A stretch of DNA of 64,000 nt, from assembly GCF_000760295.1 (NCBI RefSeq), contig NZ_JNBA01000036.1:1-64000 (forward strand), given 5' to 3'. Position numbers and translations under genes: made by a program. Below the pieces are notes generated by a model. The model saw only the letters and a program-made list of their open reading frames with translations, made no database searches and was not told where the DNA came from. Positions 7,803 through 34,520 of this stretch are shown piece after piece (the stretch's first letter is position 1; every line of letters starts with the position of its first letter). Origin of the DNA: Prochlorococcus sp. MIT 0701. Lineage in GTDB: Bacteria > Cyanobacteriota > Cyanobacteriia > PCC-6307 > Cyanobiaceae.

Positions 7803-7806
7803 TGTC

Positions 7807-11672: not shown

Positions 11673-11684
11673 GGGAGACAAGAC

Positions 11685-16692: not shown

Positions 16693-16773
16693 GATGTCAG
16701 TCCAAACCATCACAAAAGCCTGATCAACAGCACAATCATTTTGCCCCAATCAGGCACGCGAAATCTTGCAACC

Positions 16774-17232
16774 TCAGCTTTCAATACGCCAGTCCTGATC
16801 TGAAGGAGTCCATGTGTTGAGCTCTTCAGCAGAGAACCAGAGGTTGATCTCAAACTGAGCGGTGTCTGGACCATCGGAGCCGTGGATCACATTACGACCG
16901 ATGTTCACAGCTAAATCCCCGCGGATGGTCCCCGGCTCAGCCTCCAGAGGCTTGGTGGCGCCGATCAACTTGCGGGCGCTCGCAATCACACCATCACCTT
17001 CCCAGACCATTGCAATCACCGGACCGGAGGTAATGAAATCAACAAGCCCAGCAAAGAAAGGGCGCTCACGGTGCACACCGTAATGCTCACCAGCCAAATC
17101 ACGACTGGGGGTGACCTGTTTAAGCCCCACGAGCTTGAAGCCCTTGCGCTCAAATCGACCCAGAATTTCTCCCACCAGACCACGCTGGACGCCATCGGGC
17201 TTGATGGCAACAAAGGTGCGTTCCATGGCCAT
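16774..17232 (-). CDS. ndk: Ndk, nucleoside diphosphate kinase
   Basis: Ndk transfers phosphate from ATP to other nucleoside diphosphates through a phosphohistidine. The 152-residue protein begins [20 protein letters not shown] and carries the active-site motif NVIHGSD with His117. The [11 protein letters not shown]-site and [16 protein letters not shown] segments are intact. ATG at 17232 gives the length usual in picocyanobacteria; ATG at 17226 is also possible. It precedes the FecR-like gene on the same strand, but as a housekeeping enzyme it is probably transcribed independently. Confidence 0.97.
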
Positions 17233-17559
17233 GCTGATCAGTCGTTATTGCGGCCATCGTCCGTGTTGGAGTTACCGCTTGGCAAGCCAACCAATGGCCC
17301 TAGATCTGAATCAGACAAGCAGCAATGCCCTAAACCTCAACTGCACTGCTCTCTATCGAGGCCTTTCAACAGAGAAATCCAACTAGAAATGGCACACGCT
17401 CCACATTCACAGAAGATCATTGGGCTCGTGATATCGCTGCAAAGCCTGTCGCAGAAAGGATAGCTAAATCATCCGACCTAAAAGTTATCCACGCTGCTGC
17501 AATCCCAGGCAACCACCATCAACAGAAAACTGACAAGGGCCCAAATGATGCACTGGTGA
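17233..17559. other. 327-bp gap with no gene seen
   Basis: No coding signal, repeat or clear hairpin was found. It should contain the promoter of ndk at its left end. The decayed CHASE2 copy begins at its right end. Confidence 0.5.
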
Positions 17560-17932
17560 GGTCGTCTTGTTTCCTACGCAATCATTCTATTAAGCACTGC
17601 CACTTTTTGGCAGACCAATCTAGCCCAATCATTCGATCTAATCATCTACGACCTTGTGAGTGAGGCAGGTCCGACCCGCTCTAACGAGGAGGATCCAATC
17701 ACAATGATCTCCATCAGTGAATCGAGCAGCAATTACCTTTGCTGGCCAATTGACGACCAAAAGCTCTGTAATGCCATCGATCCCTTGACGAACACAGGCG
17801 TCAGCACCATTGGCTTAGACCGTTACCGCAACCAAAGCCCAAGCACAACAAGACAATGGGCGCATTGATGGCCTCGCAGACGACAAATCCATCAGAATTC
17901 AATCACTTGAAGCTGCTTCAACATGCTGACTC
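17560..17932 (+). pseudogene. decayed CHASE2-domain gene fragment
   Basis: After a TGA at 17557-17559, one frame reads a hydrophobic helix (SYAIILLSTATFW), then QSFDLIIYDLVSEAG and DPITMISISESSSNYL, then WPIDDQKLCNAIDPLTNTGV and STIGLDRYRNQ. This follows the N-terminal helix and CHASE2 start of the cyclase at 20250 almost block by block; there the text is GLDLLLYDLV, QPITIIGIGEDD, FPIDDGLFCKGIDQLSKNGA and AIGFDIYRDQ. The frame stops at 17868, and a second frame continues with GRIDGLADDKSIRIQ until 17932. No start codon, cyclase domain or further CHASE2 sequence follows. It is a truncated, frameshifted paralogue. Confidence 0.7.
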
Positions 17933-17990
17933 CATGGCATGACTGGCAAACCAATGCAATCAAGTCTCCTAATACGAACGCCCAAATCTG

Positions 17991-19499
17991 ATGACGTTTG
18001 GCCTGCGCCTGATCACCACGATTTTGATCACCCTGCTGCTAGCGGTTAGCCATCAACGCAACCTGATTAGCTCACGCTGGCCAAAACCACCGGTTCGCCT
18101 GCCCGTGCTGGCGTTACTGATCTGGGTAGGGACTGCGCTGCCGTTCTTAGAAAAGATCATCTCCAAGCAGGCCAGCCTCACCACAATCGGACAACTGGCA
18201 CTGCTCTACGCAACACTCAGCCTGGGGGGATGGTTGCTCCTGGAGATTCCAGGGGCACTGGGCTGGTGGCATCCACCCGCCAAAATTCTGCGCCAACTGA
18301 GCGGACTGATCCTGGCAGCCATCCTGACATTAATCATCCTTCAACAGGCAGGGGTCAACCTCGCTGGCTTGATCACGACATCTGCCTTGCTCACAGGCGT
18401 CGTCGCCTTCGCAGCACAAGAACCACTTAAAGACATTTTCGGAGGGCTGAGCCTTCAATTAGACCAACCGTTTAAAGAAGGGGATTGGATCCAAATAGGA
18501 GAGGACTGCGGTCAAGTCATCATGCTGACCCTAATGAACACCTATCTCCGCACTGGTATGGATGGGTGCACCCTGATTATCCCAAACGACACGGTTGCTC
18601 AAGCGACGATCCGTCGAGTTCACCTAGGCACTCCCTATGGCAATTGTTTTGAAGTTGGCCTGGATTACGGCTTCCCACCATCACAAGCTCTCAGCCTGTT
18701 GCTGGATGTAGTCAATCGCCACGCTTCTGTACTGAACAAACCAGCCCCAAAAGCATGGGTAGCCAGCTTCGAAGACAGTTACATCTGCTATGGCATCCAG
18801 GTTTGGCATAGAGATATCAGTGACGTCAAACGGTTGAGCATCCGTGGTGAACTGATGGAACAAATTTGGTATGCCCTCGAGCGAATCGGTCAAAGCATTC
18901 CATTCCGAGTCCGTTTAGGGAGCCCCAAACCACAGACCTTGGCTGCAGACGATCCAATGTGCGCTGACGCTCAACGCAAGGTCAAATGGCTCACTAGCAA
19001 TGCACTTTTTACAGATCTAAGTCAAGCTCAACTTGATGCCCTAGCCCCATCAACACGCTGCGTACGTTTCGCAAAAGGGGAAACGATTATCCGACAGGGT
19101 GAAAGCGGAGATTGCTTGTACCAGGTGATCACCGGCACGGTTGAGGTGTCGCAAACAAATTCACAAGGACAAGCAATAACCTTTTCCAAACTTGGCCAGC
19201 ATGAGATCTTCGGAGAAATGGCACTGTGCACGAAACAACCTCGCAACTCCACAGTTCGCGCACTTGAAGAATCGGTACTACTAGAAGTGGAGCGCCGAGA
19301 CCTACAACCCCTGATCGATCAAGACCAGGGATTGGTTGAAAAGCTAGCCCGATTGGTACATCTCCGCCAAATGGAAATCGGGACACTCAATCAGCAGCAA
19401 AGTCATTCCAGCAGACTTCATAGTCAAAGAAGGCTGATTCGCTCCATGCATAAGCTCTACAAGGTGATACGCGGAGGGTCAAACGTGTCGAAAAACTAG
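17991..19499 (+). CDS. MscS-like channel with C-terminal cNMP-binding domain (bCNG type)
   Basis: The 502-residue protein joins a small-conductance mechanosensitive (MscS) channel to a cyclic-nucleotide-binding domain. About four to five membrane helices lie in residues 1-150. The pore-lining helix and beta domain follow (LAGLITTSALLTGVVAFAAQ, then EPLKDIFGGLSLQLDQPFKE and GDWIQI). The cNMP domain spans about 340-455 and has GQHEIFGEMAL followed by PRNSTV, so the phosphate-binding Arg is present. This is the layout of the bacterial cyclic nucleotide-gated branch of the MscS family, in which cAMP is thought to gate ion or osmolyte flow. It sits between two CHASE2 cyclases, which could supply its ligand. 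No operon partner is evident. Confidence 0.9.
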   Translation: MTFGLRLITTILITLLLAVSHQRNLISSRWPKPPVRLPVLALLIWVGTALPFLEKIISKQASLTTIGQLALLYATLSLGGWLLLEIPGALGWWHPPAKILRQLSGLILAAILTLIILQQAGVNLAGLITTSALLTGVVAFAAQEPLKDIFGGLSLQLDQPFKEGDWIQIGEDCGQVIMLTLMNTYLRTGMDGCTLIIPNDTVAQATIRRVHLGTPYGNCFEVGLDYGFPPSQALSLLLDVVNRHASVLNKPAPKAWVASFEDSYICYGIQVWHRDISDVKRLSIRGELMEQIWYALERIGQSIPFRVRLGSPKPQTLAADDPMCADAQRKVKWLTSNALFTDLSQAQLDALAPSTRCVRFAKGETIIRQGESGDCLYQVITGTVEVSQTNSQGQAITFSKLGQHEIFGEMALCTKQPRNSTVRALEESVLLEVERRDLQPLIDQDQGLVEKLARLVHLRQMEIGTLNQQQSHSSRLHSQRRLIRSMHKLYKVIRGGSNVSKN

Positions 19500-20249
19500 A
19501 TCAATAAAGGATTTACACTTTCACCAAGACAGTAAATAACTGATTCTAGGACCAAAAGACTCCAAAATTGAAGACCAAAGAAGCATAACTATTCCAATGA
19601 AAAGCTTTTAGCAGAGGTCGGTGCATAGCCGAAACTGCTAGCAAGCACCTTGCAAGCTGTCATTTTTGTTCGTTCAGATTGCGATTACTTCAAAAGCAAT
19701 TAAACAACTTTCCAAATAATTTAAATCTGCAAAGTCAATGAAAAACAAATTTTTATTGACCGCTCCATTCAGCGCACTTGCTATTCAGGCAAGAAGCTCG
19801 AGATCGTCACGAATGATGATGATTCGAACTTCTACTGAGGCTTCACAACTTGAACAAAGCAGAAAGATCATAAACGGCATATTTATGGCCTTCAATAGAC
19901 AGGGATTAACAGATAACTCGCTGACACTCTTGCACAGTATATTAGTTTATATATGGCTCACCACTAAATAGTGACCATCTCGTCAAGGGAAACAGAAAAT
20001 CCTCAGTTTCTAGTCCATAGGGCACAACCAATAATTACGGATTTAACAGCTGTAGCTGGCCACAATAATCGCCTTTCATAGAGGCAGCATGAAGGCAAGG
20101 AACTCAGGCTGAAAAAAACCAATCCGGAAATCACAGATCCTTAGGACTGCTCGAATCAAGCCGGTTGCAAGCAGTCAAATACCTAGTTTCATAGTGAAGT
20201 CAACCAGCCAGGTCGATGCTGCATAGGCTGAGAGAAAGGAGCATGGCTA
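19500..20249. other. 750-bp gap with no recognised gene
   Basis: The sequence is A/T-rich. A 77-codon forward frame at 19738-19971 starts with a hydrophobic run, but the rest reads as random and no ribosome binding site precedes it. Nothing else was identified apart from the ribosome binding site of the following cyclase gene (AAAGGAG at 20235-20241). Confidence 0.55.
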
Positions 20250-22244
20250 GTGGGAAAAGCCTCAAAAAGCAGCGGGCACCAACGACAACAGCCACGGCCA
20301 ACCAAAGCAACTGGCTGGAGATCCATCACCGCTAGAGGTATTGCTTGGCGAATAGCCCCCTACCTGATCGGCCTAGCTTTACTTGCTGTTTTCAAAGGTT
20401 TCGGAATATCCCAGGGTCTTGATCTACTGCTTTACGACCTCGTCACCACGTTGCGCCCTGCAGCCTCAGGCAAAACACAACCAATCACAATCATTGGCAT
20501 CGGGGAAGACGACATCCGCAACCACGGATTCCCCATCGATGATGGCCTGTTCTGCAAAGGAATCGACCAACTCAGCAAGAATGGAGCTGTTGCCATTGGC
20601 TTCGACATCTATCGCGATCAGGGCGTGGGTCCAAATCAGGAGTGCCTACGCGAGCGCTTTCGCAATAATCCTCGACTGGTCTCGATTTTCAACGTAGCCA
20701 GCAATATTCCAGCTGTTCCAGGAACGCCTCCTGAAAGACATAGTTACAACGACGTCTCCGTGGATGATGACAATGTCATCAGGCGAGATCTTGTTCACGT
20801 TGCCGGCCAAGACGAAGCCACAGTCGCCTTCCCTTTGCGCATTGTCGAAGTCGGCACAAAGGATAAAAAGCTGCGTCAACAACTAGAAGCAGGGACCATC
20901 ACTGATGCATGGTTGACAGCAAATCCCAATGGCAATTTCTTGTTTCACGGGAGTCATGCTGGCGGTTATTTCAACCAGAAAGCTGCAAGAGATGGAATGC
21001 AACGGCTGATTGTCTTCCGTGAACCAGGCAGTTTCCGCACCTTCTCTCTTTCCGCTCTGCTCAATGGAGATGTACCCAAAGCTGCCATTGCAAACCATAT
21101 GGTGCTGATCGGCAGCACCGCACCATCGCTGAAAGATCTTTTCGAGATTCCCCATAGCCGCTTCAGCGAAGGCGAAATTCAGCTCAAAATGCCAGGGATA
21201 GAAGTCCATGCTTTGCGGGTTGCCGCCTTACTGGACCGACAGCAAGGCATTCTCGTCAGAGGCTTCTTGATGCCCGGCTGGGGCAACATGATGCTGATCC
21301 TGGCAACCGCAGGATTAGGGCTATGGCTAGGCGAATCTTTCTCAACGCTGCGGCGTAGCGTGATTGTGGTCGTGACTGCAGCCGTTGTATTGAGCGCTGG
21401 ACTGGTGCTTCTGCTGATCAATTACATCTGGATCGGCACCGTCATGCCTGTTGCGGGTCTAACTGTCTTGGCAGGAACAGCATGGATTCGTCGCGGTGCC
21501 GCAAGTCAAAAGCACCAACAAGAAATACAACGCCTACTGGGCCAAGCCACATCACCAGCAGTCGCCCAGCAACTATGGCAACAGCGTGATCAACTACTCA
21601 AAGACGGACGTTTCGAAGGTCGTCAACTACCAGTCACGGTGCTGTTCACTGATACAGCCAACTTCACAACAGTATCCGAGCATTTTCAACCTGCTGAGCT
21701 GATGGACTGGCTTAACCGAGGCATGGCTAGTTGCGTTCCAGCCGTTACAACTCGAGGAGGAATGATCAACAAATTTACCGGTGACGGGCTGTTGGCAGTC
21801 TTTGGAGTCCCCCTCAGTGAAGACCCAAAAGCCGACGCCCGCGCGGCCATTGAAGCGGTAATCGAAATTCAAACTGGGCTGGTGAAGCTCAATGAAGAAT
21901 TAGCAAAAGAGGGTGCCCCAGCCAACCGTATGCGCATTGGCATTCACTCGGGTGTCGTCCTAGCAGGATCGATGGGTAGCAGCGAGCGGCTCGAATACGC
22001 GATCATCGGCGATACCGTGAACTGTGCATCAAGACTTGAGAGTTTCGAAAAAAATCGCCATGTAGGAGTTCTTCGCGTGTTGGTTTCATCAACCACCAGA
22101 GAACTACTCGGAGACGAGCTCAACAACTCTCTGCATTGGGACGAGTGGGGAGAGATTCAAGTCAAAGGAAGGGAAGAACCCCTACTCGTATCAGAACTCA
22201 CGATGGACAACGCACCGGCAACTGGGCCGGCCAGTTCGAAGTGA
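20250..22244 (+). CDS. second CHASE2-domain adenylate cyclase (class III)
   Basis: The 664-residue protein has a basic cytoplasmic N-terminus, one helix (about 35-50), a CHASE2 domain (about 55-335), three helices (about 340-415) and a class III cyclase domain (about 455-640). Metal-binding residues are Asp468 (LFTDTANF) and Asp512 (KFTGDGLLAVFG). Lys508, IIGDTVN and NCASRLE complete the adenylate-type active site, so it should make cAMP. GTG at 20250 is supported by AAAGGAG at 20235-20241; ATG at 20243 is in another frame that soon stops. Its 3' end overlaps the convergent DUF928-like gene by 47 bp. It is more similar to the relic at 17.6 kb than to the cyclase at 14-16 kb. Confidence 0.94.
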   Translation: MGKASKSSGHQRQQPRPTKATGWRSITARGIAWRIAPYLIGLALLAVFKGFGISQGLDLLLYDLVTTLRPAASGKTQPITIIGIGEDDIRNHGFPIDDGLFCKGIDQLSKNGAVAIGFDIYRDQGVGPNQECLRERFRNNPRLVSIFNVASNIPAVPGTPPERHSYNDVSVDDDNVIRRDLVHVAGQDEATVAFPLRIVEVGTKDKKLRQQLEAGTITDAWLTANPNGNFLFHGSHAGGYFNQKAARDGMQRLIVFREPGSFRTFSLSALLNGDVPKAAIANHMVLIGSTAPSLKDLFEIPHSRFSEGEIQLKMPGIEVHALRVAALLDRQQGILVRGFLMPGWGNMMLILATAGLGLWLGESFSTLRRSVIVVVTAAVVLSAGLVLLLINYIWIGTVMPVAGLTVLAGTAWIRRGAASQKHQQEIQRLLGQATSPAVAQQLWQQRDQLLKDGRFEGRQLPVTVLFTDTANFTTVSEHFQPAELMDWLNRGMASCVPAVTTRGGMINKFTGDGLLAVFGVPLSEDPKADARAAIEAVIEIQTGLVKLNEELAKEGAPANRMRIGIHSGVVLAGSMGSSERLEYAIIGDTVNCASRLESFEKNRHVGVLRVLVSSTTRELLGDELNNSLHWDEWGEIQVKGREEPLLVSELTMDNAPATGPASSK

Positions 22245-22869
22245 TCAGATCACCAAGATCGAAAGCCTTGGCCAATTCAGCACTTGGCACAGTCCCCCCG
22301 CAATAACGTCGTATCTCCGCAATCGCTATCTGAATACCGGCATCAGCAGGTTGAACATCTCTCACCAACAAACTCACGGCAGGTGGAGATACCGTCTGCA
22401 CGAACTGGAGGGGATCAGTGCTATTGATATCACCATCACCGCAGCGGTATGAAGACTCCCAAACAGTTGGGACCTGCAGGGCCTCAAATCTGATCAGAGT
22501 TATCCCTGCCGTGGAAGCCGGCAAATCTTTAGACGTTAGGTTTAGTCCAGAAGTCTCATTACTACGTGAGCCACTCATAGGACGAAACTGCAGTTCAAGC
22601 GGTTTAGGAGTTGCCGTAGGTCCCTCAAGTAAGCCAATTTGCAAAGTGCTATTCGGGGCATAGACACTGCTTTCGGGGACCAGATGAACCAGCAAGCGTG
22701 CACTACATTCACCTCTAGTACCCCCGCCCACTCGTCGACCAGGGAAACTACTGCGAAGGTCATCCTGAGCAAAACCAACGGCTGGAGCCAAGACAAGGGC
22801 AGCCAGTAGCGACCACAATCGCAATCGAAAAGCTGACCGTGATAAGCGCATAGACGATACTAAAGACAT
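22198..22869 (-). CDS. secreted DUF928-like protein
   Basis: The 223-residue protein starts with a signal peptide (hydrophobic LWSLLAALVLAPAVGFAQ, cleavage near residue 35). It has the DUF928-type opening SFPGRRVGGGTRGEC and a beta-rich domain with paired cysteines (YRCGDGD, RRYCGG, RCPS at the end). DUF928 has no known activity, but in cyanobacteria it repeatedly neighbours CHAT, CHASE2 and haemagglutinin-type genes, as here. It is the third gene of a reverse-strand set (exoprotein, CHAT, DUF928) and lies 136 bases after CHAT. ATG at 22851 is an alternative start. Its last 47 bases lie within the convergent cyclase gene. Confidence 0.8.
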   Translation of the reverse strand: MSLVSSMRLSRSAFRLRLWSLLAALVLAPAVGFAQDDLRSSFPGRRVGGGTRGECSARLLVHLVPESSVYAPNSTLQIGLLEGPTATPKPLELQFRPMSGSRSNETSGLNLTSKDLPASTAGITLIRFEALQVPTVWESSYRCGDGDINSTDPLQFVQTVSPPAVSLLVRDVQPADAGIQIAIAEIRRYCGGTVPSAELAKAFDLGDLITSNWPAQLPVRCPS

Positions 22870-23005
22870 AATGACCTACTTGAATGCAGGCTGCATCCAG
22901 CCTGCAGCCTCTCCTTCACTCTTACTATCACACCTCTGCAGAGGAAGCAAAAGCAAACAACACAAATAGAGCAAGCAGTGAATGATGGTGCCCATCAGAC
23001 ATGCT

Positions 23006-24325
23006 TCACCAGGGCGAACCCAACAGTTCAATCCCAGCCCAAAAGAAAGGATTCTGCATGCCCCTAGCTACGCGGCGTTGCTGTGTAGGGGTGAGATCGA
23101 TAAGCAGAGGTATGCCATCAGCACCGATGATCTGATCCCCCTCAAGTCTTACAAGCCCTCTGAGGAATGCCTGACGCGTGAGCTGTAGTGACTCAGCTTT
23201 GGGCATATCTTGCTCGAGGTAGCGATACATCTGCACGAAATAAGCAGACGTCACTACGTCATCGACATACCAAAGGGTACCGACAGCACTACGGGCACCA
23301 GCCTGAAGCGCCAGCCCAGCGAATCCGAGTTCAGAATCAGGATCGCCAATTGCAGTACGACAAGCACTAAACACAACCAGATCAAGGGGCACCCCTTTTC
23401 GCTGCTGACGCAGTTTCGATAACTGCGCCATAGAGATGGGCCCGGTACCAGAGTGAAGCTGAGATGCCGACGGTCCACCCGGCCGGAACTCCGCGTGAGT
23501 TGCTACATGAACGCGGTCATAGCGGGATTCACCGCCCTGCACAAGCAACGCTGATGGAGTGAAAGCTTTATCGAGGAAAAGATCCTTACGATCGGGATCG
23601 GATACTGCGATCTTCTCGAGCTCCTGTGGCACAAGCGGAAGTGACGCCAAGCCATCAAACTGAGAGGCACCAAGGGCCAGGAACCGCGAACCACTCTGAG
23701 CAGGTAGGTTTATATCGGTAAGTGCGAGCGATGGTGTCATCGCAAAGGCATAGCTGTCACCGAAGTAGCGCTGCCCATCGCTAAGTGCTGCAAAAGGTAC
23801 CGCCTGTAGGCCTCGATCAGCAGCAATCAGCAAGGTGCTGACGCGATGTTTCTCAAGCAACGGGGTAATACTGCCGATCAACCATTGGTGCAATCGTCGC
23901 GTTGGGGATTCTGGATTGGCCACATCCAAAAAGTCCTGCCGCGAGAGCTGGATATAGAGCTGCCTAAGCTGGGAGGCGAACTCACGTGTTGAGAGTTCAA
24001 CGCGACGTCCCTCAAGCTCGCCCTTAGACGGTATCAGGGTTAAATCGAGAAAAGCATCTGTATTTTTAGAAGTGGTCTTTCCGGCGGCCTGGGTGAAGCG
24101 CACATGCAATACCGCAGGGTTGTAGGCCACCCGGTTAAATCCAGGAGGTGGTTTTGGGGAAGGCAAAGCTGTCTGAGCAGCTACGAGCAGCCAAGGGTCT
24201 TTGCGCATCAAATTGGTTTGAAGCTCTGCCGATGTATGGCCCTGGCCAGCAGCACTTACTGAAGCCACCAACCCAAGCAATGAGGACTTAACAACAAAAC
24301 TGGCGTTCGCCCTAGCGAATGTCAT
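23006..24325 (-). CDS. CHAT-domain (caspase-like) protein
   Basis: The 439-residue protein has a possible N-terminal export signal (VVKSSLLGLVASVSAAGQG) and a C-terminal CHAT domain. The predicted catalytic dyad is intact: His277 in VHVATHAEF and Cys322 in VVFSACRTA. GFAGLALQAGARSAVGTLW, which follows, is a family signature. CHAT proteins are caspase/separase-like cysteine peptidases, and the secretion signal suggests action outside the cytoplasm. Its ATG overlaps the stop of the large exoprotein gene by 4 bases, so the two are translated together. Processing of the exoprotein or of its partner is an attractive but unproven role. Confidence 0.9.
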   Translation of the reverse strand: MTFARANASFVVKSSLLGLVASVSAAGQGHTSAELQTNLMRKDPWLLVAAQTALPSPKPPPGFNRVAYNPAVLHVRFTQAAGKTTSKNTDAFLDLTLIPSKGELEGRRVELSTREFASQLRQLYIQLSRQDFLDVANPESPTRRLHQWLIGSITPLLEKHRVSTLLIAADRGLQAVPFAALSDGQRYFGDSYAFAMTPSLALTDINLPAQSGSRFLALGASQFDGLASLPLVPQELEKIAVSDPDRKDLFLDKAFTPSALLVQGGESRYDRVHVATHAEFRPGGPSASQLHSGTGPISMAQLSKLRQQRKGVPLDLVVFSACRTAIGDPDSELGFAGLALQAGARSAVGTLWYVDDVVTSAYFVQMYRYLEQDMPKAESLQLTRQAFLRGLVRLEGDQIIGADGIPLLIDLTPTQQRRVARGMQNPFFWAGIELLGSPW

Positions 24326-27300
24326 CGGCGCTCACCAAAGCGTTGAACAGCCTGCTGCATACCTGCCTGGAGCTGAGCCGTCGTTGGTGTGGGTCGGTCC
24401 GCCAGATCAGGCAAGTTGAGATCCCGAATAGTACGGCTCGTGGTTACCTCATCAGCCTTGGCAAGATTGGCAGCCGCCTGAACTGATGTCACCCTGGTAA
24501 CAGAAGAAGGTGTCGAGGCTGCTGTCGGCGATGACGCAACGGAATCAGTGGTTCCACCTTCTAGCTCACCTGATTCAGGCTCGGCAGCTGAAGCTTCACC
24601 TAAGTCTGCATTTGCAGTGGAGTCTGTAGCTTCGCCTGATTCAACACCTCTGGCCTCTGTCTGGATATCGCCACTGCTACTAACAGAAGAAGTCAAAGCC
24701 CCATCAGCTACACCAGTTGAGCCATATGTCGAATTATCGACAACCTCAAAAGAGTTATTGAGCGAAAGATCCACTTCCAAACCATTAGCGGCTATGGCTT
24801 GAGGAGCCCCTTGTACAGCACCCGTATCAAATTCATCATTGGGAGAATCACTCATGGTTTCCGTAGATTCTCCCCCTTCAATTACTGTTACTGAGCTAAC
24901 AGTTGCTGTTTCAATAGCTACTGAACTAACGAGGCTTGTCACTAGTTGGGGCTGAGTGGAATTCACAACAGCGATAAGCTCAGCCACATCCTCATCATTA
25001 ATCAAATCCTGAGTGAAGTCATCATTTTCTTCTGTAGCATCTCCTGTATTGGCAGTTGGGGCAGATGTTGAAGTAGGTGTTGTAGCAGTCGCTCTAGTCT
25101 GAGTTGTAGTAGGTGTTGTCGTCTGAGTTGTAGTAGGTGTTGTAGCAGGTGTTGTAGCAGGTGTTGTAGTCTGAGTTGTCGTAGGTGTTGTCGTCTGAGT
25201 TGTAGCAGGTGTTGGGGTAGATGTATCGCCACCACCACCACTACTACTACTACTACTTAAACAGAGGTTACTGCTAGCACCACTAGAACAAGTCGCAGAT
25301 GTAGGAGCCGCAGAGTTAACTGTCAAAGTGCCAGCGGTAACTATTGTAGGGCCAGAGTATGTATTAACACCCTCCAAAATCAACGTCCCCTGGCCGATCT
25401 TGGTCAAACCATTACTAGCACTTCCACCTTGAATATTAGTGCTGTCAGTGTAAACCTCAAGTCCCGAATCTACATCAAATGTTCCTCCAGAGGCGCCCAA
25501 GGTTAACGTAGTAGTAGCCGCAGTAGAATCGCGTGGCACGTTAACACTGAATTTCAGAGTTGCGGCAGTGGTGTTAGATCCAAGGTTAATAGAAGTAGAT
25601 GTACCGAAGGCATCATTATGAGCGACTTGGAATGTACCCTCCTGTATATCTATCGTCTGAGTGATATCCGATTTTCCGGATATTAGTAACGTGCCAGATT
25701 CAACTTTAGTGAGCGTAAAAGAATCAGTGCCATCATTAAGATCAATACCGTGGCCTGATTCTGTTTGCACATTGCCAGCTCCGCCAACAGAAAGATTGCA
25801 AGTATTGGTTGATGTGCAGAGAGTTGCATCAGGTGCCACTGCATATGCAGTGGCACTGCTCGAGGGATCTAAAATCAAAAATGATGAGGCATTAGCCTCA
25901 ATCTTTGAATCTCCCTCCAACATAACTGTATCGGTAATCTCCGTGTAACCTGAAAAAGCCCTAAGCACAGAATCTGTAGGACCACGATTATAATTCAATT
26001 TAATCTGTTCCCCTACTTCCATCTCTTGAGCAAGTGTTGCACCACCAGCAAATTCAAGAGTGGCACCATCGCGTACAAGAGTTTCCTGTGTGGCAGTGCC
26101 AAGGCCCGCTGCATTCGACACTCTCAAGATGCCAGCATCAACGTAAGTTTCCCCATCGTAGGTATTAGCGCCAGCAAGAACCTGTGTACCAGGCCCTTGC
26201 TTAAGAAGCCTAGAAGTAGCATTATCTGCCTGAATAACGCCCGAGAATGTTTCAGTAGCACCTGAAGGGATATTGATTGTTAAATCTGTTGTAGTACCAG
26301 ACATATTATAGGTTCCACTGCCACTGAGTGAGCGAATTGTCAGATCATTCGAAGCACTCAATGTGGCTCCACTATCAATTATCAAATCCGTTGAACTAGA
26401 AAGCCCTGAGGCCGCACCCATTGTCAACATACCCGAATCAATGGAAGTATTGCCTGTATACGTTTGGGTACCTGTAAGCGTCAGATTGCCAACACCCTTC
26501 TTTTGTAGTCCGCCAGCACCAGAAATCACACCACTATATGTAGAAGTTCCAGATTGATTAACTGCAAATGTGCCTCCTGAAGCAACCGAAACATTGCCTT
26601 CTCCCGTTAGCTTGGCAGTTGTTACATCCAAGCCCCCACTGCCTGTGGTAACTGTGACTCCATTTGCAATATTTACTGTGTCATCAGCATTCAATTGCAG
26701 AGTCCCAGAGCCACCTGACCAATCCAAACTAATATTAATATTAATATCGCCATCAGGCGCATTCACAGTTGCGATATCTGAATCAGGAACATAAGTCGTA
26801 TCTTTTGTACTTGTACTAATTGCAACATTAGTGCCAGCAATCAAAGCATTTTGAATCGAATTTTGACTCGAATTGTCAATGGTATATGTAAATGGATCCA
26901 AGAGCCATTCACCCGCCTCACCATTTACACTCCCGACATCAATTGCGACTTGATCAACATCAAGATAAGCACCAGATGTTTCAATTTTTCCTCCATTGCC
27001 ATGAAGGCTTCCACCACGACTAACCAAACTGCCTGCAACGCTAGTTAAGCCATTAGGGTTATGGATATCACTCCAAGCCACAATCGTTCCGCCATTACCC
27101 TGATCAGTAGCCGAAGCATCAAATAACGCGCCAGGTTCAACCGTTGTATGCAACGCCTGGCGAACAGTTGGATCACTGTTCTGCCAGCTGCCACCCACTT
27201 GAATCAATCCTCCGCCAGTCGCACCAGTCGCCAACAGCTGAGAGCCACCATCCACCTTCACTTGCTCACCGGTCAGCGTGAGACTGCCACCACTACCATC

Positions 27301-27981
27301 AGCAGAACTCACCGAAAGGCGGCTGCCAACGACCTTCACACTGCCACCAGGTGCATCTACCAAGAGGCTTTGGTCAATCGATACATCAATTCCTTGGAGC
27401 AGAATCCTTGGGGTAGCTATAAGGCCAAGCTCTGCACGCCGCGCCGGATCATCTACAAATCCCTGCGATCCTGACAAGGGATCAGACACCAAAGCCGCCA
27501 GCTGCTGCGGGCTACTACCAAACACATCGAAAACACCGTTATGAAAACGCAGCGAATTGGCCGTACTTAGCTTGAGCTGCTGCACATTCACAAAGCCAAC
27601 CCCTGAGCCAAGATGAATGCCACCAGGTGACAGCCAAAAGAGATTGGCTGGTGACGACAAACTCAGCAGCTTGTCGAGATAGGTGCCAGCAGAAGCGGTC
27701 ACACCCACAATCAAATTACTTTTCCCACCGGTATCGATATTCACGCCCTTAATGGCACCACGAGTATCGAAAGCACTAAATCTGTGGAAACGATTCTTAC
27801 CCGCATCGCTGCCACCAGTAATGCGACAGATCCCACGCCTGCAGACCCCTTCAAGGTTCCCGTTAACACGAGTACCCAGCCCACCCGAACGCACATCAGC
27901 CCGCGCGACAGAACCAAGCCACGTCGAAACACCTAGCGTTAGAGCCAAGGTCAGCAAAACCCGTCTAGCGATAGATGTCAT
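24322..27981 (-). CDS. haemagglutinin-type TpsA exoprotein with PATR repeats
   Basis: The 1219-residue protein is the likely cargo of the divergent TpsB gene. ATG at 27981 gives a standard signal peptide (MTSIARRVLLTLALTLGVST...ARA); the frame extends to 28053. Residues of about 30-310 form a TPS/haemagglutination-activity domain (NRFHRFSAFDTRG, NLFWLSPGGIHLGSG). A beta-helical region follows with at least three passenger-associated repeats of the form GxGxLxLxGxNTYxG. Then come poly-Ser/Gly, a Thr/Pro/Gln-rich linker, an acidic low-complexity stretch and an Arg-rich end. It should be exported to the cell surface as an adhesin or similar fibre. No C-terminal barrel is present, which agrees with two-partner rather than classical autotransport. 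It heads an operon with CHAT and DUF928. Confidence 0.9.
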   Translation of the reverse strand: MTSIARRVLLTLALTLGVSTWLGSVARADVRSGGLGTRVNGNLEGVCRRGICRITGGSDAGKNRFHRFSAFDTRGAIKGVNIDTGGKSNLIVGVTASAGTYLDKLLSLSSPANLFWLSPGGIHLGSGVGFVNVQQLKLSTANSLRFHNGVFDVFGSSPQQLAALVSDPLSGSQGFVDDPARRAELGLIATPRILLQGIDVSIDQSLLVDAPGGSVKVVGSRLSVSSADGSGGSLTLTGEQVKVDGGSQLLATGATGGGLIQVGGSWQNSDPTVRQALHTTVEPGALFDASATDQGNGGTIVAWSDIHNPNGLTSVAGSLVSRGGSLHGNGGKIETSGAYLDVDQVAIDVGSVNGEAGEWLLDPFTYTIDNSSQNSIQNALIAGTNVAISTSTKDTTYVPDSDIATVNAPDGDININISLDWSGGSGTLQLNADDTVNIANGVTVTTGSGGLDVTTAKLTGEGNVSVASGGTFAVNQSGTSTYSGVISGAGGLQKKGVGNLTLTGTQTYTGNTSIDSGMLTMGAASGLSSSTDLIIDSGATLSASNDLTIRSLSGSGTYNMSGTTTDLTINIPSGATETFSGVIQADNATSRLLKQGPGTQVLAGANTYDGETYVDAGILRVSNAAGLGTATQETLVRDGATLEFAGGATLAQEMEVGEQIKLNYNRGPTDSVLRAFSGYTEITDTVMLEGDSKIEANASSFLILDPSSSATAYAVAPDATLCTSTNTCNLSVGGAGNVQTESGHGIDLNDGTDSFTLTKVESGTLLISGKSDITQTIDIQEGTFQVAHNDAFGTSTSINLGSNTTAATLKFSVNVPRDSTAATTTLTLGASGGTFDVDSGLEVYTDSTNIQGGSASNGLTKIGQGTLILEGVNTYSGPTIVTAGTLTVNSAAPTSATCSSGASSNLCLSSSSSSGGGGDTSTPTPATTQTTTPTTTQTTTPATTPATTPTTTQTTTPTTTQTRATATTPTSTSAPTANTGDATEENDDFTQDLINDEDVAELIAVVNSTQPQLVTSLVSSVAIETATVSSVTVIEGGESTETMSDSPNDEFDTGAVQGAPQAIAANGLEVDLSLNNSFEVVDNSTYGSTGVADGALTSSVSSSGDIQTEARGVESGEATDSTANADLGEASAAEPESGELEGGTTDSVASSPTAASTPSSVTRVTSVQAAANLAKADEVTTSRTIRDLNLPDLADRPTPTTAQLQAGMQQAVQRFGERR
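25070..25217 (-). repeat. degenerate 12-bp coding repeat encoding a Thr/Pro/Gln linker
   Basis: Units related to GTTGTAGCAGGT and GTTGTCGTCTGA repeat about a dozen times, reading TTTP, TTTQ and ATTP on the coding strand. They are followed by CCA/CTA triplet runs (25230-25258) that encode Gly and Ser. Such tracts are prone to slippage and probably vary in length between strains. Confidence 0.85.
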
Positions 27982-28192
27982 CACAGGAATTTTATTGCCC
28001 TCAAAACACATATCATCTAAAAGAAAGCCGTGATCAACAGTGATCAGTATCAAGACTTGCTGTGATCTGGCTCACTTGGCCAATGCTGAAGCGAATAGCA
28101 CCAGCGAGAAACCAATACGCCAAGGTCTATGACATTAATAATATTCGCCAAGCAACGGGTACTTGGTTCATCAATAAAAAACCCCATAATGA
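27982..28192. promoter_or_regulatory. divergent intergenic region between the TpsA and TpsB genes
   Basis: About 210 bases separate the exoprotein operon from the TpsB frame and must hold promoters for both directions. Several A/T-rich boxes are present, but none can be assigned with confidence. The right side contains the problem start of TpsB. Confidence 0.4.
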
Positions 28193-29905
28193 TTTGCAAT
28201 ACCTCGGAATACTCAAACCATATTTTTCCTTCTGGCTCAACTTGTAGCACCACCCCTGCAACCCGGGCCAGTACGACTGCCGGAACATACCCCCCTGGAA
28301 ACAGGGCCCCAACCAAGCCAACCCAGGCAGCCACAAATACTTAAAGAACCACAACCGCCGCTTGAAAACAAACCTGAAGAATCGCTAGTAGCACCTGCGG
28401 ATATCCCAAGCTCTAACTGGCGACCTCCTATCGAGGGCACGACCCCTTACAGCACTGAGCAACTTCAAAAAATTCTCAGCTCCTGCGGCAGACCAACCGT
28501 CGCAGACACCCTGAACATCTGTGCTGCCAAACTCACCGCCAGGCTGGTGCGCGATGGCTATGTGAACAGTCGGGTCTTCACTCTTGCAACACCAAGTCCA
28601 GGAGCACTGGAGGTGGTAGAGGGCCGAATCGCTGAGCTGCGCATCAAAAGCCCTGACTTAGGCCTGCAAAAGGAGATCAAGAAGCGGCTGAATTCACTGA
28701 TCGGCAGTGTGCTTCATCTGCCCAGCCTCGAAAAAGCTTTGGTAAATGTGCGCAGCATGCCTGGGGTGGGGCAGATCACAGGAAATCTGGGTCGCCTCGG
28801 CAGCGATGCCACTCAAGCCAAATTGAGCCTCACAGTCGACCCGGCCCCCACCCCATGGCTGGGAGAAGTAAGCATCCGCAACGACGGCAATATCGGCACC
28901 GGCGAATGGCGCAGTATTGCCACGGTGATGAAAAACAACCTCGTAAAGCGCAACGATAATTTTCTGGCCTACTTCGAAATGAATAGTGATTCCGACCCAG
29001 AACTCGGAGCCACCATCACCTCCACCAGTTACACCTGGCCGTTATCAGACAACTGGCGACTTATCGGATCATTCGGCCACAGCCGCCGCCAGCTAGTAGA
29101 AGCATCAGATGACGCCCATGAGATCAGCTTCCGGCAGTTGCAAGCCATGGGACAGGTGGAAACCACCTTGTACCGCTCAACCAATCAACTCTGGAGTGCC
29201 TTTGCAGGTATCAGCGGCAACCGCAATGACAGCTACCTCGCTGGCGACAGCATTCCTCTTGTACTCGGAGGCGGCCCAGACGGCTGGCTACGAAGCGGCT
29301 ATCTAAGAGGCGGCATTAACTTCTCCGGAAGCATCAAAGACCTGGCTTGGAACAGCAATATCTATGGACTACAAGGAATCGCTGGGTTCAGCACTGAGAG
29401 CCAGCTCAAGGAATTGGCCTGGTTCGGAATTAATCCAGGCGAAGCTCGAGCCATCGGTGGCCTAGCCAACCTTCACTGGAGCCTAAGCCCCAACGTGATG
29501 CTTAAGCTACGAGGGGCCGGTCAATGGGCCTTTAATCATCTTCCTAGCGACATGGGATTCAGCATCGGCAGCGATGTAGGTCTACGCGGGTTGCCTGGCA
29601 GTCTGATCAGTGGCGACAGCGGCTGGGTTGGAGTCAGTGAGCTGATAATGACTGCCTGGCGAAAAGATGATCAAGCACTCCAGATCGTCCCCTTCATTGG
29701 GATGGGTGGGGTTAGAACAGATTTCAACGACATCGTCTTTGAAGACACGATTGGATCAGGTGGAATCCTGACTCGCTACTACAAAGGATCCTGGATGCTG
29801 GAGTTGGGCTGGGTTAATTCTTTTGAAAGCGCAGATAACCAAGGCATTTGGCAAGAGTGGCTGCTAGGAGATGGCCTCTATGCACACCTGAAATATCGCT
29901 TTTGA
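28193..29905 (+). CDS. TpsB/ShlB-type outer-membrane transporter; start codon unclear
   Basis: This is the likely outer-membrane partner that exports the TpsA protein. The frame is open from 28193. It reads a signal-like TIFFLLAQLVAPPLQ, a proline-rich linker, and a POTRA-type domain (STEQLQKILSSCGRPTVADT, then CAAKLTARLVRDGYVNSR). A 16-strand-type barrel ending in the aromatic motif KYRF follows. No ATG, GTG or TTG lies in frame between 28193 and GTG at 28547, yet the conserved POTRA sequence starts well before 28547. ATG at 28189 is in another frame; removing one T from the run near 28222 would join them. Either a non-standard start (ATA 28220 or CTG 28232) is used, or a 5' frameshift has damaged the gene. 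The barrel itself is intact. Confidence 0.85.
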   Translation, partial: FAIPRNTQTIFFLLAQLVAPPLQPGPVRLPEHTPLETGPQPSQPRQPQILKEPQPPLENKPEESLVAPADIPSSNWRPPIEGTTPYSTEQLQKILSSCGRPTVADTLNICAAKLTARLVRDGYVNSRVFTLATPSPGALEVVEGRIAELRIKSPDLGLQKEIKKRLNSLIGSVLHLPSLEKALVNVRSMPGVGQITGNLGRLGSDATQAKLSLTVDPAPTPWLGEVSIRNDGNIGTGEWRSIATVMKNNLVKRNDNFLAYFEMNSDSDPELGATITSTSYTWPLSDNWRLIGSFGHSRRQLVEASDDAHEISFRQLQAMGQVETTLYRSTNQLWSAFAGISGNRNDSYLAGDSIPLVLGGGPDGWLRSGYLRGGINFSGSIKDLAWNSNIYGLQGIAGFSTESQLKELAWFGINPGEARAIGGLANLHWSLSPNVMLKLRGAGQWAFNHLPSDMGFSIGSDVGLRGLPGSLISGDSGWVGVSELIMTAWRKDDQALQIVPFIGMGGVRTDFNDIVFEDTIGSGGILTRYYKGSWMLELGWVNSFESADNQGIWQEWLLGDGLYAHLKYRF

Positions 29906-30147
29906 ACTCTAAACAACAAGCCTACAGATCAGCCTGAATACCGAAAAGGGATGAGGGCATGAACAAGTCGTTCACAGCAGTCTTTAATAATGGGCACAAG
30001 TAATCACAGCTTTGAAAAAAGGGAATTCCAAAGAAAGCACCAAAACAAAAGCATGAAGTGCAGGAGATTCTGATACTTAAGCAATACGAATGCCAAAGCA
30101 CACCTAGATTTCCTTGTCATTCCCTCAGCGATCCATCTGCGTGCGTT

Positions 30148-32094
30148 ATGTCGGCAGCCGACCCCATCCAGGGCAACAAGTCATGGACCGTTGCCGATAG
30201 CGCAGCCCTCTATGGCCTCGACCGCTGGGGGGAGCCCTACTTCTCAACCAATGCCCGCGGCCACGTATTGGTGCAGCCACGCGGCGATCAAGGCAGCTGC
30301 CTTGATCTGGTGGAACTGGTAGAGGAGCTCAAAAGCCGCAACCTCAACTTGCCTCTGCTGATCCGCTTTGATGACATCCTCGAAGACCGGCTAGAGAGGC
30401 TGCACAGCGCCTTCGAAGAAGCCATTACCAAATACGGATACGCCGGTCGATATCAAGGCGTATTCCCGGTGAAGTGCAACCAACAGCGCCACGTCGTAGA
30501 ACAACTGGTAGAAAGTGGTCGCCACTGGCACTTTGGCCTAGAGGCTGGCAGCAAGGCTGAGCTGCTGATTGCTCTTTCACTCGTCAACGACCCAGAGGCA
30601 CTCCTGATCTGTAACGGCTACAAAGATCAGCGCTACATCGAAACCGCGATCCTGGCCCGCAGGCTTGGTCGCCAACCTGTAGTAGTGATTGAACAACCCG
30701 ATGAAGTGGAGCGGATTATCCGCTCCAGCCAAGAACTTGGCGCAGCCCCCTTCATCGGTGTACGAGCAAAGCTAACGACACGCAGTACGGGCCACTGGAG
30801 TAGCTCAGTAGGCGAAAAAGCCAAGTTCGGCCTCTCAATCCCGGATCTGCTATCCACAGTGGAAGCCTTAAGGCAAGCTGATCTACTGAGCGATCTGCGC
30901 CTACTGCACTTCCACATCGGCAGCCAAATCAACGACATCGCTGTACTCAAAGACGCGCTTCAAGAGGCAGCGCAAATTTACGTAGAGCTGACCAAGCTGG
31001 GAGCCCCCATGGGGTATTTAGATGTTGGGGGTGGTCTGGGTGTCGACTACGACGGCAGCCGCAGCGCTAGCGCAGCATCGACCAACTACTCCCTACAAAA
31101 CTACGCCAATGATGTGGTCGCAACGGTGCGCGAATGCTGTGAACCCCATGGCATCACTTTGCCTATCCTTGTGAGCGAAAGCGGACGCGCAATCGTTAGT
31201 CATTTCTCAATACTCGTATTCGATGTACTGGGTACAGGAACTATCCCAGGAGCTGTACCAAAGCAAACAGGAGAGGAACCCCTCACCATTCACAACCTTA
31301 GGGAGACGCTCGCAGGAGTTATGGCAACTCAAAAGGGTGCTATGCCTGAAATATCGCGCCTACAGGAAGCATGGAACGACGCGATCAAATTCAAAGAAGA
31401 TGCCCTCGCTGCCTTCCGCTTGGGTTACATCAGTCTGCCAGAGCGGGCTCTGGCAGAACAACTTACAGGGGCTTGCGCCGAAGCAATTATGGGCCAATTG
31501 CCTTGCAACCAAACAATTCCCGACGACCTACAAAGTTTAAGAGCTGTTCTCGCTGACACCTACTACGCCAACCTTTCAATATTTCGTTCAGCCCCAGACA
31601 CCTGGGCCATCGAACAACTCTTCCCGCTCATGCCGATTCATCGATTGAATGAAGAACCAACTCAGCTAGGTCACTTCGCCGACCTCACATGCGACTCCGA
31701 CGGCAAACTGGACCGCTTCATCGGGAATGGGCAAACCAAAACTCTGCTTGAGCTGCACAACCTACGCCAAAACGAGGCTTACATGATTGGTATGTTTCTC
31801 GGCGGTGCTTACCAGGAAGTGATGGGCAATCTGCACAACCTGTTCGGCAGTACCAATGCAGTGCACATCCGGCTAACAACTGGTGGTGGCTACCAGGTAG
31901 ACCACGTTGTGCGAGGCAACACCAATTCCGAGGTGCTCGAAGCAATGGAGCACAACCCTGAGCTCCTGCTAGAGCGACTGCGCTTGGCTAGTGAACTTGC
32001 GATTCAACGAGGTGAGCTAAAGATCAACGATGTGCGCCGGCTGATGGACCATCTAGAAGCGAGCCTGCGTCAGACCACCTACCTTCAAGGCTAG
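30148..32094 (+). CDS. speA: SpeA, biosynthetic arginine decarboxylase
   Basis: SpeA converts arginine to agmatine with PLP, the first step of polyamine synthesis from arginine. The 648-residue length from ATG at 30148 (MSAADPIQGNKSW) is typical. The frame is open back to 30058 without family sequence. The PLP-binding lysine lies in YQGVFPVKCNQQRHVVEQ. HFHIGSQ, LDVGGGLGVDYDGS and ETLAGV are other family landmarks, and the C-terminal LHNLFGSTNAVHI block is complete. It stands alone, with 242 bases upstream without a gene. Confidence 0.96.
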   Translation: MSAADPIQGNKSWTVADSAALYGLDRWGEPYFSTNARGHVLVQPRGDQGSCLDLVELVEELKSRNLNLPLLIRFDDILEDRLERLHSAFEEAITKYGYAGRYQGVFPVKCNQQRHVVEQLVESGRHWHFGLEAGSKAELLIALSLVNDPEALLICNGYKDQRYIETAILARRLGRQPVVVIEQPDEVERIIRSSQELGAAPFIGVRAKLTTRSTGHWSSSVGEKAKFGLSIPDLLSTVEALRQADLLSDLRLLHFHIGSQINDIAVLKDALQEAAQIYVELTKLGAPMGYLDVGGGLGVDYDGSRSASAASTNYSLQNYANDVVATVRECCEPHGITLPILVSESGRAIVSHFSILVFDVLGTGTIPGAVPKQTGEEPLTIHNLRETLAGVMATQKGAMPEISRLQEAWNDAIKFKEDALAAFRLGYISLPERALAEQLTGACAEAIMGQLPCNQTIPDDLQSLRAVLADTYYANLSIFRSAPDTWAIEQLFPLMPIHRLNEEPTQLGHFADLTCDSDGKLDRFIGNGQTKTLLELHNLRQNEAYMIGMFLGGAYQEVMGNLHNLFGSTNAVHIRLTTGGGYQVDHVVRGNTNSEVLEAMEHNPELLLERLRLASELAIQRGELKINDVRRLMDHLEASLRQTTYLQG

Positions 32095-32206
32095 GGCTTG
32101 CCATCATTCCTATATCGGAGGCATGAGCAACTGTGATCACGGCAACTCATTGAGCACTGAAGAGTCGCATCCCAGGAGATCAGCAACTTGTTTTTCTGAA
32201 AGCTTT

Positions 32207-32255
32207 CCTAAGACTCCTAAGACTCCTAAGACTCCTAAGTCTCCTAAGTCTAAGA
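32207..32255. repeat. 9-bp tandem repeat (CCTAAGACT/CCTAAGTCT)
   Basis: Three CCTAAGACT units and two CCTAAGTCT units run head to tail, followed by a partial unit. The repeat is intergenic, between speA and the convergent Crp-family gene. It encodes no recognised protein and may be a simple slippage tract or part of the 3' ends of both transcripts. Confidence 0.9.
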
Positions 32256-32299
32256 CTGTTCTGGCTGATCAATTCAACCCGTAACCGTGCTCAAAAGCT

Positions 32300-32995
32300 C
32301 TAAGAGCCAAGCGGCAACAGACCTCGTTTGACCAGCGGCTGCAGATCCACCAAACGCAGACAGCCTTCAACCTCCTCCAGTGTTCCACGACTCCGCAGCT
32401 TGCTCAATGTCCGGGAGGCAGTCTCCCTGGACAAACCTGCCATGAGACCCAACTCCCTTTGAGCTAAGGATGGAATCGCCACTTTGGGATCATCGGCAGA
32501 AGAACTCTTGCGAGCCAAGTAAGCCAATGCATTGAGTAAGCGCGTCGTGGCATCACTGGTCTGGATTGCAAAACGCTGATTGAGATCCCGCAAGCGAGAT
32601 GCCTCAAGCTGAGCCAGGGCAATCGCAAAGCCCACTTCCTTGCGCAGCAAAGTCACAAAAGGCGACGCTCTCATCTTCAAAAGTTTCACTGGCGTTAAGG
32701 CCACAACATCAGCAGACCTGGGTGCTGCATCAAGAACAGCCATCTCACCAAACAGATCCCCCTCCCCCAACACTGACATCACAACTTCATCGCCATCAGC
32801 CGTATAACTGCGGACTTTGGCCATGCCTGAGCACAACAGAAAAACCGACTCACCCCAGTCTTGCTCCATCACGAAAACCTGTTCAGCAGCATGACTGGAC
32901 TCAAGATGGCGATCCAATAATTGCTCACAATCATCCGTTGTTAAAGCCGAAAAAAATTGCACAGCCTGCAACTGCTCAACACTGAAAACAGCCAT
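32300..32995 (-). CDS. Crp/Fnr-family transcriptional regulator
   Basis: The 231-residue protein has an N-terminal cNMP-binding domain (about 10-125), a long dimer helix (about 125-150) and a C-terminal winged helix (about 160-220; recognition helix in LMAGLSRETASRTLSKL). The phosphate-binding cassette GEMAVLDAAPRSAD keeps the canonical Arg and Ser, so cAMP binding is plausible. No Cys cluster for an Fnr-type Fe-S centre is seen. It could be the main reader of cAMP made by the CHASE2 cyclases; an NtcA-like role is less likely given the cassette. The gene faces speA, and the region upstream to the broken CHASE2 gene is 157 bases. Confidence 0.9.
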   Translation of the reverse strand: MAVFSVEQLQAVQFFSALTTDDCEQLLDRHLESSHAAEQVFVMEQDWGESVFLLCSGMAKVRSYTADGDEVVMSVLGEGDLFGEMAVLDAAPRSADVVALTPVKLLKMRASPFVTLLRKEVGFAIALAQLEASRLRDLNQRFAIQTSDATTRLLNALAYLARKSSSADDPKVAIPSLAQRELGLMAGLSRETASRTLSKLRSRGTLEEVEGCLRLVDLQPLVKRGLLPLGS

Positions 32996-34157: not shown

Positions 34158-34520
34158 ACACGCACGATTACCAACATTCGATAAATTCTGCCATCAATAA
34201 GCATCTATGAATAATTAGCGCATCAACCCTCTTCAATGGGTTGGAGTTTGATCGTTCCGCCAAAAATATGAACTCAAACCTGAAATCTCCTATCATTTTA
34301 ACCAAAAATAATTCTATATTAATGCACAAAATTGATGAGAAAATAAATTAAGCCTTGATTTAAATGGCTGATCAAAGGCCAATCATCTAGAGAAGAGATG
34401 CCCAGTCACCAACATTACTATTTAATGCAAAAAAGCTTCCCCCCATCAAGCGACAGCTTGCATTGGCTCTGCAAGCTGTTGCCAGTCATACCAAGATAAT
34501 GAAAGCCATCCACGGCAGCC
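34158..34520. other. 363-bp A/T-rich gap
   Basis: No gene or hairpin of note was recognised. If one T is dropped from the TTTT at 34140-34143, the pseudogene frame would run on to 34185 as FTPTINTRTITNIR, a further sign of slippage there. Confidence 0.5.

Follow-up and report, generated by a model that had tools for sequence, protein, structure and literature searches.

In the Cyanobiaceae, the CHAT cysteine-protease-like protein encoded here is, by sequence comparison, usually the C-terminal domain of a two-partner exoprotein, TpsA, a relation that was absent from the original prediction. TpsA and CHAT belong to a five-gene block with a TpsB transporter, a DUF928 protein and a CHASE2 cyclase (19475..30065 of the window, the whole 64,000-nucleotide stretch analyzed). 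The block is best explained as one module made of two submodules, A (TpsA-CHAT and TpsB) and B (DUF928 and the CHASE2 cyclase), and it points to an undescribed cell-surface system of predicted function. No published description of the five-gene set was found in the literature.

The five-gene block and its distribution

All five genes are open frames, in the places and orientations originally given. The block was delimited by comparison with a complete genome of the same genus, G003, whose flanks at the corresponding locus (L299) are 94% identical in nucleotides to the window (17510-19474 and 30066-32500 of the window against 7030-8993 and 9154-11561 of L299), with 160 unrelated bases in place of the 10.6 kb holding all five genes. 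A search for four of the genes in 251 Cyanobiaceae genomes found all in 48, none in 191 and part of the set in 12. Presence and absence agree in about 95% of the genomes, and pairwise co-occurrence gave Fisher p values of 1e-41 to 6e-54, uncorrected for phylogeny. The four genes are missing together from six near-complete genomes (G003, G008, G013, G014, G021 and G037), which come from six genera with both block-positive and block-negative members. In view of these co-occurrence counts and of the exact empty site, the gene set is a real unit, gained and lost as a block more often than by chance. A and B are not strictly coupled, since a few genomes carry A alone or B alone (G117 and G182; G094 and possibly G004).

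The neighborhood check proposed in the original prediction found the set well beyond close relatives, and the set or parts of it also recur together in other families. TpsB, CHASE2, DUF928 and a TpsA-CHAT fusion occur together in Nostoc sp. FACHB-152, as do CHAT-CHASE2, DUF928 and a TPS-CHAT fusion in another cyanobacterial family. The block hosts are marine and freshwater Synechococcus, Prochlorococcus and Cyanobium, the cultured strain WH7803 among them. The ndk-speA pair is a recurrent insertion place, and in genus g5 it sits between submodules A and B.

CHAT, the TpsA tail and the TpsB transporter

CHAT proteases are familiar chiefly from inside the cell. The one in the window (23006..24325, minus strand; 439 aa; PF12770, 3.3e-47) has a Sec-like signal of its own. 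Cys322 (23360-23362), correctly named in the original prediction, has His277 (23495-23497) as its partner; both dyad residues are invariant in the family, as is the C-terminal Trp439. A structural model (pLDDT 82.9) matched Csx29 TPR-CHAT in Foldseek (E 4.2e-14) and also separase and gingipain, so that domain, fold and His-Cys dyad are all those of CHAT peptidases. The closest likeness is to Csx29/TPR-CHAT (Craspase) and SAVED-CHAT, the best structural matches of the model. These are cytoplasmic and controlled by RNA or cyclic oligonucleotides, whereas the CHAT of the block, in which neither a TPR nor a SAVED domain was found, is predicted to be exported and goes with a TPS exoprotein.

When one contig-edge case was taken out, 40 of 57 loci encoded CHAT as the C-terminal part of TpsA and 17 encoded it free, the latter being the window and about 16 others. 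The tree shows six changes between the fused and split states (five without the contig-edge case), at least four of which are forced by well-supported branches. The 4-bp overlap of the TpsA and CHAT genes noted in the original prediction is real and recurrent: it measures 4 bp in 11 split pairs, including that of the window, and 1 bp in two. Every free CHAT (17/17) carries its own Sec-like signal, the hydrophobic N-terminal stretch scoring 1.92-3.29 against a median of 1.23 in the homologous linker of the fusions (p 2e-9).

The TpsA-like exoprotein (24322..27984, minus strand; about 1220 aa) was identified by PF12951 (6.2e-19), TIGR02601 (4.9e-26) and homology to TPS-CHAT fusions. Its frame reaches 28053, ATG at 27984 being the better start. 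It consists of a signal peptide, seen as MTSIARRVLLTLALTLGVSTWLGSVARA, a TPS-like N-domain, PATR beta-strand repeats and a Pro/Thr/Ser linker. The TPS domain scored 14.0 bits with TIGR01901, below the library cut-off of 29.1, and the protein shares homology with unambiguous PF05860 members such as that of locus L043 (3.1e-32). Its extreme C-terminus is a pre-CHAT segment (residues 1143-1238 of 1243; 24340..24627, minus strand; E 2.3e-13). The HMM for this segment was built from fused TpsA-CHAT proteins only, and in every split TpsA that adjoins a CHAT it matches the C-terminal end. The Cyanobiaceae model did not detect the segment in other cyanobacterial families, and we therefore regard it as so far a Cyanobiaceae feature. 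A C-x8-C pair (Cys922/Cys931, numbered from the start at 28053; 25261..25290, minus strand) closes the repeat region, ahead of the low-complexity linker. The motif, TATC-x-G-x-SN-x-C, is near-identical and in the same place in 16 proteins, in which these are usually the sole cysteines past residue 100; it is confined to this part of the family and absent from the g6 group. With the linker before the tail, the pair resembles disulfide-locked TpsA C-termini (PMC5422565) and is a candidate disulfide anchor.

Given the signals of the free CHATs and the pre-CHAT segment retained in the adjacent free TpsA, CHAT seems to act extracytoplasmically, with TpsA as its target or its partner. Export of the CHAT and DUF928 proteins is predicted, as had been proposed, and the signals lend no support to a cytoplasmic CHAT. 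The periplasm would be its simplest site. The surface is less likely because the free CHATs, which carry a Sec-like signal, lack the TPS domain and should thus be unable to use TpsB; a fused CHAT could equally reach the surface along with the rest of TpsA. The idea of a peptidase acting on the fiber or its partner has to be recast, since CHAT is usually fused to the TpsA C-terminus: it would be part of the TpsA tail or docked there.

TpsB (28220..29905, plus strand) is a ShlB/FhaC-type transporter of uncertain start codon. Its secretion barrel matched PF03865 above the cut-off (E 1.1e-17), and its POTRA_2 match (0.0034) scored 17.6 bits, short of the cut-off of 24. The start formerly placed at 28547 is wrong, as the homologous frame is already open at 28193 and takes in the POTRA-like region. 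Upstream of 28547 this frame contains no ATG, GTG or TTG; the closest possible starts are ATA (28220) or CTG (28232), where a relative of the same genus has ATG. Lacking a common start codon, the copy in the window may be weakly expressed. The TpsA and TpsB genes are divergent neighbors in most loci. A CRP-type site between them in the window (28061-28076, TGTGATCTGGCTCACT) is one mismatch from TGTGA-N6-TCACA and is not conserved, occurring in 7/35 TpsA/TpsB intergenic regions against 4.4 expected; the hypothesis of cAMP control of this promoter was therefore dropped and is not claimed.

The DUF928-CHASE2 pair and its surroundings

The cyclase (20250..22244, plus strand; 664 aa) combines a CHASE2 domain (PF05226, 7.5e-42), predicted to be extracytoplasmic, with a cytoplasmic class III adenylate cyclase domain (PF00211, 1.6e-23), the closest solved relative being the adenylate cyclase 2w01. 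D468, K508, D512, N591 and R595 are present in 35/35 orthologs and D588 in 34/35. The proposal of a membrane sensor making cAMP gains from this, in that cAMP production is likely because all six class III catalytic residues (two metal Asp, the Lys/Asp adenine pair, Asn and Arg) are retained. Both cyclase and CHAT are under strong constraint, with a dN/dS of 0.14.

The DUF928 gene (22198..22869, minus strand; 223 aa) shares 47 bp at its 3' end with the cyclase gene. Its assignment held only in part: there is no Pfam match even at E<=1, and the protein is a divergent member by profile-profile comparison alone (hhalign to PF06051 members, 96.8%, E 2.8e-10), the match spanning the N-terminal PGRR-GGGTRG-C region whereas the C-terminal part differs. 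A signal peptide precedes an Ig/FnIII-like beta sandwich (AlphaFold pLDDT 84.9). Compared with the PDB, the model gave no match below E 1e-3, and no function was read from the fold. DUF928 and CHASE2B form the tightest pair in the Cyanobiaceae (53 shared, one exception). DUF928 is present in most cyanobacteria sampled outside this family, in many without TPS or CHAT, and CHASE2 is directly adjacent in 10 of 20 DUF928 loci from other families, with cyclase or CHAT as output. CHASE2-GGDEF proteins also adjoin DUF928 as well as TPS-CHAT fusions. As judged from gene neighborhoods, DUF928 tracks CHASE2 even where the output domain of the sensor differs. One CHASE2-GGDEF protein, Dgc2 of Leptolyngbya boryana, regulates motility and biofilm formation (PMC10581220); it too is a CHASE2 membrane sensor making a cyclic nucleotide, c-di-GMP instead of cAMP. 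The main text of that paper mentions neither CHAT nor hemagglutinin.

Three neighbors lie outside the block: an MscS-type channel with a cyclic-nucleotide-binding domain (17991..19499, plus strand; PF00924, PF00027), which adjoins the cyclase in 17/35 relevant loci, a second CHASE2 cyclase (13924-15852, minus strand) and a FecR-domain protein (15928-16749, minus strand). The block-less G003 retains all three, the latter two with 97% and 93% identity, and misses only the five genes, which ruled out a wider unit. As they persist where the block is missing, reception of cAMP is not exclusive to it.

A proposed envelope system and its alternatives

We propose that a caspase-like protease sits in the periplasm, either as part of the exoprotein tail or docked on it, and is paired with an envelope sensor made of DUF928 and CHASE2; we consider this model about as probable as its negation. 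TpsA would pass the inner membrane via Sec and be threaded through TpsB with its N-terminus leading, while its tail, the pre-CHAT segment that follows the flexible linker, would remain periplasmic; in the C-x8-C clade a probable disulfide plug would also hold it. CHAT would sit on this tail, fused or docked; in the window genome its gene stands apart, encodes a Sec signal and is probably coupled to that of TpsA in translation. It would cut the tail or a neighboring envelope protein, and the fiber would be kept on the cell or released. The DUF928-CHASE2 pair would sense the periplasmic state, perhaps through a CHASE2 ligand, and respond by making cAMP, which cyclic-nucleotide-binding proteins, for instance the nearby-encoded MscS channel and Crp proteins, would bind. 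A tentative and rather unlikely extension is an envelope switch formed by the tail-held protease and the DUF928-CHASE2 cyclase, in which tail cleavage would both free the fiber and signal inward via cAMP; no such outside-in caspase-cAMP pathway was found described for bacteria.

CdrA/LapG and FhaB/SphB1 resemble the block in that a TPS exoprotein bearing a C-terminal tail is released or matured by a protease, with CdrA release tied to the cyclic-nucleotide signal c-di-GMP (PMC5422565). There, however, the protease is a non-CHAT protein encoded away from the TPS operon, whereas here CHAT is fused or coupled to TpsA, the linked sensor is a cAMP cyclase, and fiber release is a proposal. A literature search returned nothing that linked CHAT domains in cyanobacteria to two-partner secretion, to hemagglutinin or to CHASE2, and the main texts of three Synechococcus exoproteome papers make no mention of hemagglutinin, two-partner, type V or CHAT.

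CHAT might instead be a surface effector, TpsA being a stalk that presents the protease outside the cell, against proteins, neighbors or predators, with DUF928/CHASE2 as regulator only. The 40 fusions, in which CHAT is a C-terminal passenger, and the existence of secreted TpsA proteases such as LepA (PMC5422565) speak for this; we still find it doubtful, as the free CHATs would halt in the periplasm and CHAT is strongly conserved. Exported weapons are usually variable. The same conservation makes a contact-dependent or polymorphic-toxin system, with CHAT as toxin domain and DUF928 as immunity protein, quite improbable: the architecture of a TPS protein with a C-terminal enzyme domain would fit, as would the small gene directly downstream in 26 loci, but the C-terminal domain, including dyad and Trp439, is invariant between strains and conserved across the family, unlike a variable toxin paired with its own immunity gene, CHAT is often encoded by a gene of its own, with an export signal, and DUF928 often lacks TPS or CHAT and tracks CHASE2 instead.

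The two submodules could also be unrelated envelope modules sharing a hotspot beside ndk-speA, as the lone submodules in several genomes (loci L203-L205), the recurrent insertion there and the arrangement in g5 would allow. The 95% agreement in presence and absence and the recurrence of the set or its parts in other families, as in Nostoc sp. FACHB-152, render this improbable. Least credible is a cyclic-nucleotide anti-phage defense (Pycsar-like) or caspase-based cell death. PADLOC lists the cyclase as PycC (best 1.5e-25) and CHAT weakly as BovA (3.7e-06), but the PycC matches span only the generic class III cyclase domain, the scan of the other proteins of the module gave no partner effector for a dedicated cyclase, and export is predicted for both CHAT and DUF928; we judged the matches generic and rejected this reading.

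Returning to the protease-bearing exoprotein tail, the system is testable since its hosts include the cultured strain WH7803. DUF928, an orphan family, gains a predicted role as the exported partner of CHASE2 sensors. An exported CHAT built into a two-partner exoprotein would, if true, extend caspase-like proteolysis to the bacterial envelope.

A five-gene unit at a recurrent insertion place

In the complete congeneric genome G003 the flanks were 94% identical in nucleotide sequence to the window up to position 19474 and again from 30066, and 160 unrelated bases stood in place of the 10.6 kb holding exactly the genes for CHASE2 adenylate cyclase, DUF928 protein, CHAT protease-like protein, TpsA exoprotein and TpsB transporter. 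The five genes form one unit. MscS-cNMP, FecR, a second CHASE2 cyclase and Crp were all retained in G003 and are therefore neighbours of the block, not members.

All five genes claimed in the original prediction were found as open frames in the window, which belongs to a genome of 2.59 Mb with relatives in Synechococcus, Prochlorococcus and Cyanobium; three corrections were necessary. The start of TpsB had been misplaced: the gene begins near 28220 with none of the common start codons, the frame at 28193-28547 being open yet containing no ATG, GTG or TTG, and same-genus genome G002 (locus L202) shows an ATG at the equivalent position. The DUF928 protein is probably a divergent member of its family, and Pfam fails to recognise it. 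The TPS domain of the window's TpsA was detectable solely via relatives.

CHAT, DUF928, cyclase and TpsB were scored in 251 Cyanobiaceae genomes. All four were present in 48 and absent from 191, and 12 genomes were partial, some of them owing to contig breaks as in G002, where DUF928 stops 51 bases short of the contig end and the TpsA tail opens another contig. Fisher values for co-occurrence, which ignore the relatedness of the genomes, ranged from 1e-41 to 6e-54. Six genera hold both states, and a near-complete negative genome of each lacks all four genes.

In four genera (g1, g5, g10 and g34) the block lies at or around ndk and speA (window 16774-17232 and 30058-32094), otherwise adjacent genes separated by about 90-160 bp in most relatives searched (G008, G013, G014, G021, G037, also G143 and G275). 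Insertions of envelope genes recur at this place. The same place in G094 (L205 7844-12137) carries a CHASE2 cyclase, DUF928 and a distant CHAT (29% identity), with no TPS genes.

CHAT and the tail of TpsA

The predicted structure of CHAT resembles Csx29, separase and gingipain, and His277 and Cys322 are invariant; fold and His-Cys dyad are intact. The dN/dS ratios, 0.14 for CHAT and cyclase and 0.24 for TpsA, indicate tighter constraint on the former two.

Most relatives encode CHAT and TpsA as one protein, with CHAT as its C-terminal domain; proteins of this form, in which both the TPS and the CHAT domain are clear, also occur in other cyanobacterial families. Among 58 CHAT domains placed on a tree, the label switched between fused and split 6 times, and supported branches force at least 4 of these switches; the "split" row of L140 is to be discounted as a contig edge. 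Free CHATs carry a Sec-type hydrophobic N-terminal stretch in 17 of 17 cases, where fusions have an ordinary linker; in the tests on split features some rows share ancestry and the p-value is indicative. Where a split TpsA adjoins a CHAT, it always ends with the segment that precedes CHAT in fusions, according to a model built from fusions only, and the TpsA of the window is no exception (E 2.3e-13). Overlaps of the two genes measure 4 bp in 11 split pairs and 1 bp in a further two. On the simplest reading of these sequences, CHAT and the TpsA tail have to come together outside the cytoplasm, fused or split alike.

Lacking a TPS domain, a free CHAT should not be taken by TpsB and should stay in the periplasm. 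Some TpsA proteins have disulfide-locked tails that keep their C-termini there (PMC5422565). Similarly, in the window's wider clade 16 proteins have a C-x8-C pair, often the sole cysteines of mature TpsA beyond the N-domain, placed after the beta-strand repeats and ahead of a low-complexity linker, and by analogy their tails may be periplasmic; the motif is absent from other groups possessing the system.

CHASE2 and DUF928, a probable sensor pair

Every residue expected for ATP use is present in the window's cyclase. DUF928, found in 115 of 145 cyanobacterial genomes and 0 of 14 controls, is predicted to be exported and was modelled as an Ig/FnIII-like sandwich, for which structure comparison found no close solved relative. 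CHASE2 is the next gene in 10 of 20 DUF928 loci, picked solely as the best hit per genome. Its output there is a cyclase or a CHAT domain, and GGDEF in another locus. Since the output varies while CHASE2 stays, the partner of DUF928 appears to be the CHASE2 sensor domain, whatever its output. The additional peptidoglycan-binding domain (PF01471) of one DUF928 protein (L046 5090-6136) supports a location in the envelope.

CHAT-CHASE2 fusion proteins adjoin DUF928 in L046 (2727-10621) and L183/L195 with DUF1822 proteins close by, and this sensor group may have DUF1822 as another partner. At window 33153-34520 a third gene for a CHASE2 cyclase is broken, only its first 149 codons being open; in G003 (L299 12280-14001) it is open throughout the stretch examined. 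Window positions 7645-13898, immediately next to the second CHASE2 cyclase, encode a likely peptide or protein exporter: two ABC exporters, of which one has a C39 peptidase domain, and an HlyD-family adaptor.

Proposed working of the block

The component parts of the block are already known. The combination was not described in the literature found by a search that reached few subscription papers, and there appears to be no description of the gene combination, of the pairing of DUF928 with CHASE2 or of the recurrent splits that conserve the tail. A CRP-type promoter site was tested as a regulatory link and failed.

The comparisons establish the anatomy, co-inheritance, fusion and conservation of the block. 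As judged from sequence, it would most likely work as a TPS fibre whose retention is controlled by a caspase-like protease, carried by or docked on the fibre's periplasmic tail, next to a DUF928-CHASE2 sensor that would make cAMP.
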